DNA of 64,000 nucleotides. It comes from Antedon bifida (Eukaryota; Echinodermata; Crinoidea; Comatulida; Antedonidae). This document shows, one piece after another, positions 53,901 to 62,900 of the stretch (position 1 is the stretch's first letter; each line of letters starts with the position of its first letter). The notes below the pieces were generated by a model. That model was not told the DNA's origin. It did not search any database and saw nothing but the letters and a program-made list of their open reading frames with translations. Made by a program: the position numbers and the translations under genes. The DNA lies in assembly GCA_963402885.1 (NCBI GenBank), contig OY727102.1, positions 18,786,001 to 18,850,000 on the forward strand, read 5' to 3'.

Positions 53901-56900
53901 ATTAAAATTGATGTTCATAAAAAATTTGTTCAGAACATATAAATATTGATATTCTTTGGTATTTCCCATATTTTAATGATAAAGGGTACAGATTAATTTA
54001 TATTTTCTTATTAAATGTAGAATTTAATTGAGACAGGACTAGGAGATGGCTTTGAAAATTATGATATTTCTTCCTTTTTAGATTGCAAGCAACTTTTTAG
54101 TATGGGGAAGCCTTGCTTACTACTATGCAGAGGTAGGAATACATTATTGTAATGTAATATATAACTTAACGTCTATAACAATTTTCTCATCTCACTTGTG
54201 CCATTGTATTTTTTTGTGTATTTTTTTTTATTTACACTTCTCTTTTAATATTTATGTTTTATATTTTGTTTACCCATCATTATATTAAGCTCTGTCTACA
54301 CTATCAAAGTTTATGTGACAAAAAATGTGATGTGCCCATATATGGTACTTTATTGTGTTTTGATCCTATGATTTTATGTCAGAATAAAGAAATAAATAAA
54401 TGTGACAATATAATATGGACATGATGATGTCATATCACTACCATATTTGGGCACATCATATTTTGTCAAACTAGTTTGATAGTGTAGACAGAGCTTTAAA
54501 CACTTGTATACAACATTTGACCTAAAATCTGGAAACTATAAAAAAAACAGTGTAGAGGTGGGGAACGAAGAAGCTCATCCCAACTTCACCACATGAGCGC
54601 ACAATGAATTGACCTAGTTAGGTCGTCGCAAATCAAAAGCTGGTTGGGAAGGAACAGGGTAGGGGTGGGGAGGGTGACATACATCAAACATTCACAGTGA
54701 GAAGTTGAATGGTCTCCTAGCAACAAATACTAGTGTGACACAGTCTTGTTAATTATTGTTTTTTTTTTATTTTTATTTCACACAAATGTAATACTTTAAT
54801 GATTTGCTGAAACGACATGTTGCTATAAAAGTTTTTTTTTCTAATTAATATAGTACGACAAGACATAAAAACACATTAAATAATCATTATACTGACTTTT
54901 AAATGTCAAGCTTTTAGTGCATTCTACAAAGGTTGATATGAATTTATTTAAAAATAGCAGTTAAATGAGGTTTGAGATGATCTCTGACGTTGACATTGTT
55001 GCTTTAAGGTAGTTGATACCTCATCATGTAAAGCTCAAATATGATAGTGATGTGCCCAAATAATGGTAGTGATATGTCAAAATGTGGTAGCGATATGACA
55101 TATCCATATTTGGGCAAATCACATTTTTTTGTCACATCAAGTTTGATAGTGTAAACAGAGCTTAACTGGTGCTACAAATATAAGAATAAACATATATTAT
55201 AATATAACAATATGTATTATTGCTCATGCCAACTTTAGTTTTATGAAATGCCAAGAAAAACATAACTTAAAGATATATCGTCCCCCTGATAAAATAATTT
55301 TATATAACATAATAGTTATTCACTTTGACCAAAAATTGGAAAAATAAAAAACATTAATATTTACCTGAAAAAACTGTAATTTTAGTAAAAAATAGTCAAA
55401 ATTTTGTCAATGGTTTTTTGTTAAATGCAACCATTTATTTTTTTTTTTCTACGCAAATAATAATTTTACTGAAACTGCAAAATGGCCTATTCAAAATATG
55501 TTTTATGTTTTTGATGGTCAAACTACATCTTTAACCATTATCTGTCGTAATTACGATTCTTCACATTTTTATTGATTTAAAACAGCAATGCAGTCCAGTT
55601 CAGAGGCTATTGATAATGAAGTTGCACATTTCCTTCCAATGTGCCATATAAATTTGATTCAATAAAAACAATTTTGTGTCAAAAAAATGCGAAAATTATG
55701 TAACATAAAAAAAATTCACATAAAAACAAATTTACATCAATAAATAAAAGCAACTGGCATTTATGATGTATATGTCTTAGACAGTTTGCATACAGTTTGA
55801 CAGCATCTGCAGTTACATAGCTTAATAAAAATCGATCGTGTATTTAGTTTGATTTTAAAAATGAAAGATATAAACTTGTGTTTAAAAATACATTACCCAC
55901 CCCCTATGATTGACGCTGGTGATTTGTTATTAGCAAAATAAAATCGTTTATTAAAAGTTTGATATTAAACATGAAAGGTATGAACATGTGTTACATACCC
56001 AACCCCCTAGGATCGACGTCAGTGAATTATTACAGAACGCACACAGATAGGCATCGTCAGAAATTGCATAGCATAATAAAATCGTGTATTAAAAGTTTGA
56101 TTTTCAAACATGAAAGATACAAAAATATTTTAAATTTTCAAAAATATCTCTAATTGTAAACATAAATTTATATATAAATCCAAAGGAAAATTACTGAAAA
56201 AAATGACAATGCTGTCGGTATCAGTGGCTGAATCTTATGCATTTTCGTCTGTCCACGACAGTGTGTGTGAACTAGTACACCGTGGGAAACCCCCTACTCG
56301 TCTCGAAAGATGTACTAGGTTATTTAAAGTGCACACGAGCAATATGCATACACTGGACCTACGGTTTATAGTCCTTATCCGAGAAGACTTGTTCTACCAC
56401 CAGAACAATGGAGCAAGTGAGCCTTGAACCCTTGCCATGTTATGGCTATGGATTACGGTTCCACTGTCTTAACCGCTCGGCCACTCACTCAGTGCAAGTA
56501 AGAGTACTTGGACAAACTTGATGTAAATTTATATATATATTTGTTGCTTTTATGTTATTTTATTTCTCTAATGTTCTATCCATCATTGTATCCTCACATT
56601 ATATTTTATATCCTTACTTCACTACTTTTTTTTCTTTTTTTATGTACCTATCAATGTTGTTTGGTGAATATTTGTCTATAGCACGTTAGTTCTTCAAACT
56701 ATGAGAATGAGGTAAGTTCTCGCACTACACTATTAAAGAATTACAGTAGAACCTCTATTAAGTGGACACCTTCGAGACTCGACAAAGTGTCCCCTCATTT
56801 GGGGTGTCCTCTAAACAGGGTTGGCTTCAATGTTTTTCTGTGCATATAAATCAAGGCTTTTTCAATCGCTCCTGTTTTAACTTTGTTTTTTAACCTCCGC

Positions 56901-59900
56901 AAGGACCAAGTAAATCTCAATCTGATATATTGCCCCTCATTTGTAAAACTAGAAAGTGTCCCCTTAATAGAGGTGTCCCAAAGAAGGTATTCTACTGTAG
57001 AATAGCTATTCACTATTGGACAAATAGTACTACTGTATGAGTTAAATAGTACTATGAGTTAAATAGTACTATGAGTTAAATAGTACTATGAGTTAAATAG
57101 TACTATGAGTTAAATAGTTCTATGAGTCAAATAGTACTATGAGTCAAATAGTACTATGAGTTAAATAGTACTATGAGTTATAACATACCAGAGTGTGTCC
57201 TTTGCCATTTGATTGGTTATTTATGTGTCACATGTCGTTCAATATTAGCTCTACTGAACGGAAAAGTTAAGTTATATCAGTGCAATTTTTCGTTATGCTA
57301 AGAATTCCTGTCTATCCTAAAAGTCTAGTCCTGTGCCTAGACCTATGTAGTAGTGTTGTTGAAATTTTTATCAGTAGGTGTGTTTATAAAACAAATAATA
57401 AATGTTTTGTATTTGTTGAATATTTCAACTCATTAAGATTCATTATTATAGTTCCTGAGGATTTATGCAAAGATGTTGACAACATCGTTGTCTTGTAAAT
57501 GATATGTTGTCATAAACCATTTATCTACATGTAATTCCTAATGGTGATTTATTTCCTCACAAACAAGTTTAACAGCAGAGCGTGGGGGTTGATTGCAGAC
57601 AAATGCCATTTTCCCCAGGCTAACACTCGACTTCGGTATATAATATCCTCCAATTCTCCTAATTTTGCACATGAATACAATTCTATTCACTTATTGAATT
57701 TCACTGAAAATTACAGTGTTGTCATAATATACAGCAAGAACGCATACAATACTACACAGACAGAAAGGCCTAAACAACCAAATCATAATCCAGACTCCAT
57801 GCGTAAAACAAACGTAAAAGAATACACTATATACATAACCATGTTTTAGGTGAAATTTCTATACCATAAGCTAGAGTACTATAACTATACGTTTTATATC
57901 TTATTACTATACAGGTACAGTATATTCATTTTTAAAAGAATATTTTTTAACTCAAAACAACAAACTTGAGAGCTTTCGACCAACGACCTAACTGTGTCAT
58001 GATAATTTATTATGCGCATTTGGGGAAGTAGAGACTTGCTTCTTCCAACACAGTTTTTGTGATTTCTAGGTCCAGAAAACGAACGACATCGATTGACATG
58101 ACCTTAAATTTGTTCCTAGGTCATAATTTGTTACAAATCGAATGCTCCCAAATATATTCACTGTGTCACAGACCCCAATATAAAGTTTAATATTTTTTAA
58201 AGAAATAAATGTTAATAAGTGACAAATCTTTGTAAATTTGAATAAAATGATTATTTATTTTATAATCAAATACTTTCATATTATATAGCCAACATTGTTA
58301 TTGTTCCTTTTCAATATGATACTGTAAAACAAAGGCTAATTACTGAAAATAATGACAATGCTGTGGGTATCAGTGGCTGGATCTCAATGGAGATACAAAA
58401 TAAAGTAAGCAAAATGCTAAATCAAAACGATAAAGTAAAACAGCCAGAAAAATTAGCAGAGCTTTCGGGCAACACTAGCCCTTCATCAGTGCAAGGATAT
58501 ATATATAGTTATAAATCTTGATTTTAAATATTAATGTACAGTAGAGGCTTATTCTAGCCTCGGGGTACAATGAAAGTACATTATCATTCATGAAATGCAT
58601 TACCTTTGCCGAATTAATTCCTTGTTAGGGGTTTTAATGAGAATATTATGAAACATGAATGTAATAATTACTACTTTGGTAAATTGAGATTACCTTTCTT
58701 GATATTAAAAAAAAATCTGAACTATTCAATCAATTGTACAGATGACTTTAATAATATTAGTAAAAAGATAAATATTTTTGCACATGTGGCGTTTCATACG
58801 TATTGAGCTTGTATTTTCAAACAAAAATTGAAACGTCGACTGGTGGACTATACATTGGGGGCAAGTCTAAAGAAAACAAGAAAAAAAATAAAAAAAACAA
58901 AAATGACAAATAATTTGGAAAATGAACAGTAGTTTATCTATGTACAAGCTCACCCTGAGGTCCCAACCTGGATTTAAGCCCACCCTCAGACATATTTTTA
59001 TATTTATTTAAGGCAAGCCAAGATATTGTAGAGCATTGTAATTTCCCTTATATTGGATAATAAAAGGAATCTGTATTTGTTAGCCCATCATAAGACAACA
59101 CAACCTGCGCGACTACAAAATATATCTATACCTTTAAGTAGTTATTGCTAATGATTGTATTGATCTATATGAACAAGATCATGCTATACTTTATTACTGT
59201 AATTAAATTCAAATTCTCTGATTGAAGGTAGCTTTCTTGAAATGAATTACTCCTATTTTAGGGAATTAATTTGTTTTAGATATTTTAATGGCAACGTTAT
59301 GAGATTGGAAGTAGTTATAAGTATTATAGATGGACATTATCTTTTGCTAATTTGAAAACATTGATTTTCTTACACATTTGTTTGTATAGATAGTTATAAT
59401 GATAACTCATATACATACAGTATGTTGATGAAACTGATTAAGTTGATGTCCGTTCTTGGAAGTTGATCAGTTAGTATTTGTTCCTTTCATTGTAAAAGTT
59501 CTATTTGATAATTCTATATTGCATGCTCAGTTCAGAGAATTTAACTTATCAATTTTAATTAGTCGTTTATTACGTGTTTCAATAGCACAGCAAACATGTA
59601 CTTATCTTACAATGACGTGCAAGTTGTAGGGTTTTTTTGTTTTAAATTTGTTTTGATGTATTAAATGAGAGTAATAAACACTTGAACATCTAATTTTTTT
59701 TTCATTACTAGTAATTCTATTTTATTATAAGACCCCTGTGTTTTAAATTTTATCTTTGAATCTAAAATGAAATTATTGTATCTATAATCTAAAATAGCAC
59801 AATCTATTTCATCATTTTTTGTAATTTTTTTAAAATTATTATAATTTCTTTATTATATTATTTTTTAATTTTAGATTTATCAAAACATGACACGGCAAAG

Positions 59901-62900
59901 AAAACTCAACGATTTCATAATGAACGTTACGAAGTAAGTGGAGTAATAATTAATTTTGATTTATATTTTGATTGATTACATTGGCATATTGCCAAGTATT
60001 GCAAATAGCAAATGTAATCACTGTAGTCTCATCCAATCTGAACATTACTACAATAACACAGGATTCGAACCAAGTTTCTGAACCACAGGGGCAGCCCCCC
60101 ACCCTTAAATTTTGCAATTTGTAATCCAAAAGATAGGACATCAAATTAAGCCCCTTCATTACACCATTTTTAGGCCCTGAGCCCCCTATTTCAAAATCCT
60201 GGATCCGCCACTGAACCACCTAGTTGAACTGTACACTGGCTTCTACCACCCAAACCATGGATCCTCAAACTCTTGCCGATATTATGTCTATGGTTTATGA
60301 TTCTACAAAAACATTGTCAACCTGGTTGTCTAAAGCTCTGTCTACACTATCAAACTAGTTTGACAAAAAAGTGTGATGTGCCCAAATATGGTACTGATGA
60401 CATCATCATGTCCCTATATGGGCAATCACATTTTTTTGTCACATATAGTTTAATGGTGTAGACAGAGCTTTAAACATCTAAATAGCAGCCTAAATCATCT
60501 ATAAAGAGTGTATTTAAAGTGTATATATCTTTGAAATGTAAAGTTATATAATAAATAAAAAGATATGGAAGAATCAAAGACGTGTGGGCATTTAAACTGC
60601 ATAAAATATGCACTGGCGTCAATTAACCAAGAGGAAAATTAATCACATTATTGATTGAAAAATATAATCAAGCGCTGATTAAGAAATGAAATTTGTGAAA
60701 CTTAATCATATCAAAGTCTATGGTTTGATTAGTTGTGTTTAATATTCAAAAATAATTTAATTGTTCGTTACCAAGGTTATGCTTAGTATCCAAGAGTTTA
60801 TATTTTGATAACCAAATGCTTGATGTCAATTGTGTTTTTTTATATTGAATGATTTTCCCCCTCATTAATATTTCATATAGATCGATATTTCAAGATATAA
60901 TAAGTATGGACAGTGTCATTATGAAAATAATGGTAAGCTACATATTTCATAACCTGGTAGCTATTACATTCATGTGTCAACCGACATAATCATTTTCATT
61001 TTACTTACAATGACACTTAGAATACTACTACAAATTTAAAATTCCTCACATATTACTTTTTGCTCAACTACATACAAGTAGATACAGTACCTGTAAAATA
61101 TAGACACCTTTTAGATACAAAAAATTGTTCCCTTATTTTACATGTGTCCCCTGAATAAGCATTGACTAAAGTGTCAAAAAATATTACTTATTGAATGTTT
61201 TATTGGAAAGTCCTTAATAGTGGTTCTACTGTATATTAAATACATACCATCTTTTTATGCCATAAAAAGACTATGTACCCAATCTTAAATTCAACGTTTT
61301 AAAAGGTCAGGCAACATCCTAAAATGACACCAAACTTGATGTTTTTCGAAAAATATATTTCTTCAAAGAAGGCTGTTTGCTAAAATACTACTATTTCTAT
61401 ATTTCTTGTTGTGATGAGGGTTGATAGCGAGGGACTGAATGGTTAAAAAGACCTTATATTTTGTTTTTCCTTGCCCTAGCTATTTTCCCATCCGTGATTC
61501 CCTACTGATATGCCTTATAAAAATAAAATCTCTTAGAATTGTATGGTACATGCATATGTGCCACTTCGGCAGCCATATATTTAATAAATGATATTTGAAT
61601 TGATTTGATCACTTTATTTCAGAATAAATATTCCATATATACTGTACAACAAAAAAACAAAATAATAATACATATGATATATAAGATATGATAACATCTT
61701 TATATTTTAGAATTTTGCTCAGCGTCTTGTAAGTGCGGACAGGGCATCTCTTTTTCTGGTGGACAACAAAAGCAAAGAGTTATATGCCAGGATATTTGAT
61801 GTAGGTGATGGCCAAGGGAGCCAAGTTGTTACGAAAGATCACAAAGAGATACGGTAAATAAAATGGACCATGTTCGATTGGGGACTTTTTCAATTCAGTA
61901 TTTAGTTAATGGAGTATTTCAAGCTACTGTTGTTAGAACAATCTCAAACTTTTATATTCTCTAGTACTTATACAGGGAAGTACAATGTTCAAACCTCCCA
62001 AGTCACCAGGGAGATGTCCCAGATGTCTCCTGAACTCCATGCTATATGTGATAACCAAAATACTGTTGTTTTTTTACGATCATATACATTACAGCATGTC
62101 AGTTTGAATCGATGATGTCTCAGGTTGTGTAGTAATGGATGTCAATATGTTAATGAGAATATGTCACTTTCTTGATGGTTTACCTGCAATATCCATACCA
62201 TATTATCTTCAGTCAGTTAGCTTTATGTCATCAATTTTAATACCTGATCTATAATCCTTATAATTATCTGAAACTTGATATATCAGTGATGGATTGCACT
62301 GTCAGAATAATTTATGAATCATAAAGTAAACACAGTGAGATAACATGAAGAACAAAAAGAGAGGGCTTAGCTGTAAATAATTCCACTTTCCTCACCATAA
62401 AAAGATGTATTGTTCCCCTAAGAAATACTTTAGATTAATTTTAATTTAGATATAAATATTAAAGGCAATAGGTTTTGTTACATTTATTTTGTCTTTTTTT
62501 TTGGTTTAAAGTGAAATTATTTTATTTTTTGGGACAAAAGTGAATTACTTTATTAAAACAACAAAATAGTATATTGTTCAAAGTTTGATTTATTCATCTT
62601 TATTTGTTTTTTTGTTTTGCTGAAAAATACATCTTTAAAGTTCTTTTTAATTCTGAAATAAACCTTTAATTTATCATTTTGCCATTTAAAGCTCTGCCTA
62701 CACTATCAAGCTTTATGTGACAACAAAATGTGATGTGGCCATATATGGACACGATGTCATATCACTACCATATTTGGACACATCACACTGTTTTTGTTAA
62801 ACTAGTTTGATAGTGTAGACACAGCTTAAGATATAATTGCTTGTATTCTGTAGGTTTCCGATTGGTAAAGGAGTAGCTGGACACGTAGCCACATCTGGAG

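Follow-up and report, generated by a model that had tools for sequence, protein, structure and literature searches.

A gene resembling PDE10A extends across part of the 64,000-nucleotide stretch of Antedon bifida DNA analysed here (the window), which lies on contig C15 of the searched genome (315.6 Mb, 27 contigs). Its exons run from 43.9 kb to the end of the window and, in sequence extended past that end, reach about 71 kb. On the evidence of sequence, the gene is PDE10A-like, with exons for a putative GAF-A, an inter-domain linker, GAF-B and the catalytic region. Human PDE10A served as the reference; its residues 222-258 are what we take to span the end of GAF-A and the linker toward GAF-B, and all human residue numbers below refer to an assumed sequence of this protein. 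Among solved structures, GAF-B finds its best match in human PDE10A (2zmf, E 7.9e-65), followed by PDE5A (1.6e-59), and the catalytic exons, which begin just past the window at C15:18852361, match human residues 484-741 in order at the same place as matches to PF00233 (PDEase_I). The GAF-A exons match the human sequence weakly, an incomplete fragment scoring 22.0 bits against the Pfam GAF cut-off of 22.4, and the exon map is partial, with human residues of about 120-144 and 456-483 lacking placed exons. More PDEase_I exons are found on the same strand at C15:19217792-19221020, some 0.37 Mb beyond the window, and probably belong to another PDE gene.

Two exons on the plus strand frame the intron considered here. 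The upstream exon (54082..54132) encodes 17 residues covering the end of GAF-A and the start of the linker; it has the acceptor TTTTTAG and the donor GCAGAG/GTAGGA (the slash marks the exon boundary), ends in phase 0, and aligns without gaps to human residues 222-238, with the alignment extending one codon into the intron. The downstream exon (59875..59933), with the acceptor ATTTTAG/ATTTATC and the donor ACGAA/GTAAGT, encodes linker sequence that aligns ungapped to human residues 239-258, and the junction is again in phase 0. Because these ungapped matches cover adjoining human residues, the two exons are read as consecutive, and their boundaries delimit an intron of 5742 nt on the plus strand (54133..59874). 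When nothing is inserted between them, the linker has the human length and is gap-free relative to the assumed human sequence. To our knowledge, human PDE10A carries no residues at the point where the candidate exon described below would insert, and the human splice variants that we know of differ at the protein ends, not in the GAF linker. The first-pass annotation had named the gene PDE10A, had joined the flanking exons in phase into a linker gapless against the human protein, and had placed the insertion point between GAF-A and GAF-B. The identity is borne out by the 2zmf match and the catalytic exons past the window, the joining stands when set against the assumed human sequence, and the insertion point holds at the sequence level.

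Within this intron lies a candidate cassette microexon of 30 nt (56682..56711, plus strand), which is in phase 0 on both sides and ends at the donor GAG/GTAAGT. In the window sequence, its letters read CACGTTAGTTCTTCAAACTATGAGAATGAG, its 5' flank ends ...TTTGTCTATAG, and GTAAGT follows; the translation comprises ten residues, mostly polar and free of stops. Sequence and translation alike confirm the stop-free 30 nt stretch, the AG before it, the donor after it and the phase that had initially been noted. Its splice sites were compared with 18 donors and 17 acceptors mapped in the same gene, whose exon ends were placed by eye, using a generic donor matrix and an acceptor matrix built from the gene's own 17 mapped acceptors. 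The candidate donor scores 11.94, higher than 16 of the 18 mapped donors; two of the 18 have its strength, and within the 5742 nt intron it is the sole donor of such strength. The candidate acceptor scores 3.98 and falls inside the range of the gene, as 6 of the 17 mapped acceptors, each left out in turn, score lower.

The chance expectation for such a configuration was derived from 20 arbitrarily chosen 10 kb pieces of the same genome, together 200 kb and read on both strands (400 kb in all), with any true exons left in. Pairs were counted when an AG and a donor lay 9-60 nt apart, at a multiple of three and without an intervening stop. With donors scoring at least 11.9, this null contains 14 pairs that involve 7 donors, two of which belong to copies of a single sequence, equivalent to 0.20 pairs per 5742 nt intron, and the window contains four pairs on the plus strand, candidate included, and one on the minus strand. 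Counts of this size on donor, length and frame speak for a chance pseudo-exon, in which an AG in the intron stands by accident 30 nt and in frame before a good donor, and the two are left unspliced or are spliced as noise; the probability of this reading is substantial, if somewhat below even. The same reading draws support from the behaviour of weaker sites: when both are relaxed to the third-worst mapped site, the intron holds 9 sense and 3 antisense pairs against 8.9 expected, so that splice signals of ordinary quality are uninformative here. It also accords with the lack of any match between the ten-residue insert and the rest of the gene, a comparison in which so short a query has low power. 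When donor and acceptor must both equal or exceed those of the candidate, 2 null pairs remain (0.029 per intron), and the window contains only the candidate. Donor, length and open frame together constitute weak evidence beyond chance.

The acceptor-side architecture says more than donor, length and frame. An AG scan places an AG-free zone of 175 nt directly against the candidate acceptor (56505..56679, plus strand). In 20 other loci, 17 of the 19,703 AGs have a zone of at least 175 nt before them, and the zones of the gene's 17 mapped acceptors measure 17-99 nt. The host intron is itself AG-poor: the candidate's zone is the second longest of 273 within it, the longest run being 188 nt. Sequence and AG scan further define a distal polypyrimidine tract at -70 to -41 (56612..56641, plus strand), the best 25 nt of which are 92% C/T. 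An equal or better tract within the AG-free zone is present at 22 of 19,229 null AGs, and the tracts of the mapped acceptors reach 80% pyrimidine at most, zones shorter than 25 nt scoring 0 by construction. Upstream of the tract, the motif CTAAT (56568..56572, plus strand), the sole CTRAY match in the upstream 180 nt, resembles a branch site with its branch A at -111. The 30 nt that follow it are 70% pyrimidine, a combination found at 95 of 19,229 null AGs and at none of the 17 mapped acceptors. The motif at -111 carries little weight because none of the 17 mapped acceptors has CTRAY in its own zone. No TGC (the UGC motif) occurs within 100 nt upstream of the candidate acceptor.

The combination of these features tells against a pseudo-exon. 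A zone of at least 100 nt by itself occurs at 158 of 19,229 null AGs; together with a tract and branch-motif score at least as high as the candidate's, it occurs at one. A zone of at least 60 nt with a tract of at least 0.76 is found at 5 of the gene's 17 mapped acceptors and at the candidate. Among the 278 null pairs that pass a donor threshold of at least 7 and the frame requirement, a single one shows this zone and tract, and the window has one such pair on the plus strand and none on the minus strand. Raising the donor threshold to at least 9.5 empties the null and leaves the candidate alone on both window strands, a result that speaks against a chance origin. Under looser settings (donor at least 7, zone at least 20, tract at least 0.6), 35 null pairs appear, or 0.50 per intron, along with 10 on the plus and 5 on the minus strand of the window. 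Since the acceptor features were picked after the sequence had been read, the acceptor-side figures overstate the case.

An exon that is real may also be constitutive, in which case the crinoid PDE10A linker would simply be ten residues longer. The rank of the donor above 16 of 18 mapped donors would suit such an exon, and no sequence feature proves skipping; however, the skip form already gives a gapless linker of human length, and the 175 nt zone is unlike those of the gene's mapped acceptors, which makes constitutive use improbable. Even less probable is a splicing decoy, whose sites would bind splicing factors and affect the removal of the long intron without producing a stable exon. The pairing of a strong donor with a middling acceptor inside a 5.7 kb intron is what a decoy might look like, but a decoy has no need of an open, in-frame stretch of 30 nt.

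Copies of the gene, and origins of the exon by copying, were considered and set aside. The genome search turned up neither a retrocopy nor a paralogue from which the spliced product could be read: the joined protein has five matches, comprising four of its own exons and a weak match on C8 (E 0.58). A transposon origin of the candidate exon was set aside in view of repeat matches that cover mainly 56742-56795 and 53 bases from 56490, not the exon, although the repeat search skips very common words and cannot prove the exon unique. The dispersed repeat at 56742..56795 (plus strand; TACAGTAGAACCTCTATTAAGTGGACACC...) starts 31 nt past the candidate, outside the exon, and has at least 48 other matches genome-wide, 82-93% identical; it may represent the terminus of a small transposon. 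Duplication of a neighbouring exon likewise finds no support: when 19 exon peptides were compared with the gene sequence from 43 kb onward, past the window end, the catalytic exons 68899 and 70035 alone matched each other (E 6.6e-10), and the other non-self matches had E values of 0.018 or worse. The similar exon ends ...YYYAE and ...NYENE, noticed by eye, are too short to carry meaning. At about 57040-57180, the same intron contains a short tandem array with units of about 17 nt (AGTTAAATAGTACTATG), recognised by eye, and an element of the AAGCTCTGTCTACACTATCAAA... type with inverted ends recurs in introns at about 54288-54498, 55000-55165 and 60333-60475 (by eye).

Elsewhere in the genome, a profile search finds an eMIC domain (PF15230) at C7:33483632-33483772, where it scores 27.7 bits and the cut-off is 27 (peptide QWSPIRKRRDSPSFLDARRITR); a 47-residue peptide cut from this locus scores 34.3 bits against the same profile. 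The genome therefore appears to encode a neural microexon factor of the SRRM3/4 type.

Contig C27 (15,844 bases) is the mitochondrial genome. It carries COX1, and its other genes were recognised by eye in a translation with table 9 (echinoderm); ND1 and ND2 are encoded on the other strand from COX1, and an ND4L-like frame is located between ND4 and ND5. T makes up 46.7% of the COX1 strand and C 11.4%. A composition rich in T and poor in C (44.9% T, 12% C) is called crinoid-specific in mitochondrial genomes in the available excerpt of one study, the reference list of which includes a title on a unique nad4L rearrangement within crinoids (PMC7748595). These mitochondrial features indicate that the host is probably a crinoid.

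The first-pass interpretation finds partial support. The existence of the 30 nt exon is given about even odds on the sequence features described above, and the layout of its splice signals lends plausibility to a real cassette exon, probably a regulated one. The specific proposal that 56682-56711 is an optional exon of crinoid PDE10A, spliced via a distant branch point, is assigned a probability of roughly 0.42. This proposal is favoured by the open frame, the phase 0 on both sides, the gapless skip form and the strong donor, by the 175 nt zone with its 92% C/T tract and CTAAT at -111, by the finding of no other copy of the exon and of flanking repeats that stop short of it, and by the eMIC splicing domain encoded in the genome. 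Against it stand the AG-poor intron with its other AG-free run of 188 nt, the 0.50 null pairs per intron under loose thresholds, the lack of UGC near the acceptor, the insert without a match in the gene, and the post hoc choice of acceptor features. The prior is low because real microexons are rare in any given intron; for an exon this short it is of the order of 1% per intron. Combined with the donor rank (2 of 18), the 0.2 pairs that chance puts into each intron and an acceptor likelihood ratio of about 80 (5/17 versus 1/278), this prior leads to a rough estimate of about 0.3 for a real exon. It was raised to about 0.4 because long AG-free zones are described for eMIC exons and accompany cassette splicing in human.

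If used, the candidate would be an ordinary kind of splice variant. Skipping would yield a PDE10A enzyme of normal length, and inclusion would place ten mostly polar residues after the final GAF-A helix and before the helix of the linker that leads toward GAF-B. The GAF-A/GAF-B linker is a long helix in PDE2A and its relatives, and its role in coupling comes from structures of tandem-GAF phosphodiesterases. The distal tract and the AG-free zone may make inclusion dependent on a tissue-specific splicing factor. The insert, which is poor in helix formers, could break the GAF-coupling helix and create a hinge; were it helical instead, ten residues at 100 degrees each would add 1000 degrees, a net turn of -80 degrees, and shift 3 heptad positions. 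A linker helix broken or turned in this way might weaken or loosen the allosteric coupling of the GAF domains, or re-phase it. The linker helix is absent among the matches listed in a literature search on PDE10A and tandem GAF, which is not proof of its absence from print. Should the exon be real, it would provide a natural pair of enzymes differing by ten GAF-linker residues only, a test of whether the linker transmits ligand binding in PDE10A, and regulated short exons would be shown in the cAMP/cGMP pathway of a crinoid; should it be a pseudo-exon, the candidate is ordinary intron sequence. Crinoids are sister to the whole of the remaining extant echinoderms, according to the portion available of a published account (PMC11336682).

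The same gene contains a second putative switch past the window. Two tandem catalytic exons of 112 nt each, located at C15:18854899-18855010 and 18856035-18856146 (4.9 kb and 6.0 kb beyond the window), are alternative versions of human residues 652-689, with 18 of 38 residues identical. Differences between them fall on the three codon positions as 13, 10 and 27, the third position prevailing. The frame is kept when exactly one of the two is used and is broken by both or neither, so the exons are very likely to be mutually exclusive. In human numbering, both versions retain D at 664, L at 665 and F at 686 and have V at 679 and F at 683 in common, whereas position 668 is either S or I and position 675 either Q or H. 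These positions presumably line the PDE10A pocket, with 664 as a metal ligand. The pair very likely consists of mutually exclusive exons that swap pocket residues, and it is a better-supported splice switch of the gene than the 30 nt candidate. That one crinoid PDE10A harbours two independent switches, namely a regulated 30 nt linker cassette and a catalytic pair that swaps pocket residues with the metal ligand kept, is a more doubtful proposition; if both were true, up to four enzymes would result, combining two allosteric couplings with two substrate pockets. Among literature matches for PDE10A and mutually exclusive exons, only an autism title was found, and for duplicated or mutually exclusive catalytic exons of phosphodiesterases none was found by title, neither result being proof of absence from print.

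In comparison with known systems, the crinoid gene resembles human PDE10A in its putative GAF-A exons and in its linker, GAF-B and catalytic exons, with 2zmf as the best solved relative of its GAF-B. It differs at the insertion point, where the human protein, as we assume its sequence, is without residues. Among the matches listed in literature searches, a microexon is absent from those on PDE10A or GAF and from those on echinoderms, sea urchins or crinoids, which is not proof of absence from print. A term search of the main text of a paper on srrm3 mutant zebrafish found no mention of pde10a or GAF (PMC13281805).

Neural microexons dependent on the eMIC domain offer a second comparison. In the available part of one study, fly eMIC exons are described as having extended AG exclusion zones, a UGC motif close to a 3' splice site that is itself very weak, and tracts rich in CU; mammals are said to share the features of the fly exons with two exceptions, the weakness of the 5' splice site and the strength of the downstream branch site (PMC8797185). 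The candidate is alike in being very short and in frame, with a long AG-free zone and a pyrimidine-rich tract. Its donor is not weak, which is compatible with this class in that a weak donor is described for flies, not for mammals, in the same excerpt; the upstream 5' splice site, which is strong in eMIC microexons, is GAG/GTAGGA here. In contrast to eMIC microexons, the candidate has no UGC near its acceptor, its tract is mostly T instead of alternating UCUC (by eye), and its acceptor appears middling (3.98) instead of extremely weak. With 30 nt, it also lies just above the 3-27 nt by which microexons are defined in the portion available of another source (PMC7935315). A neural eMIC programme for the candidate is possible, and the signature UGC motif gives it no support.

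Cassette exons with distant branch points form the third comparison. In the excerpt available of a study of human exons with an AG-free zone of at least 100 nt, 68 of 235 are cassette exons against 47 expected (PMC1431707). The candidate shares with the exons of that excerpt a zone of at least 100 nt, and its distal tract, preceded by a putative branch-site motif, would fit them as well; it differs in that its branch point is a motif match and its alternative splicing is putative. Judged from these signals, the distant-branch-point cassette exon appears to be the nearest known counterpart of the candidate's layout.
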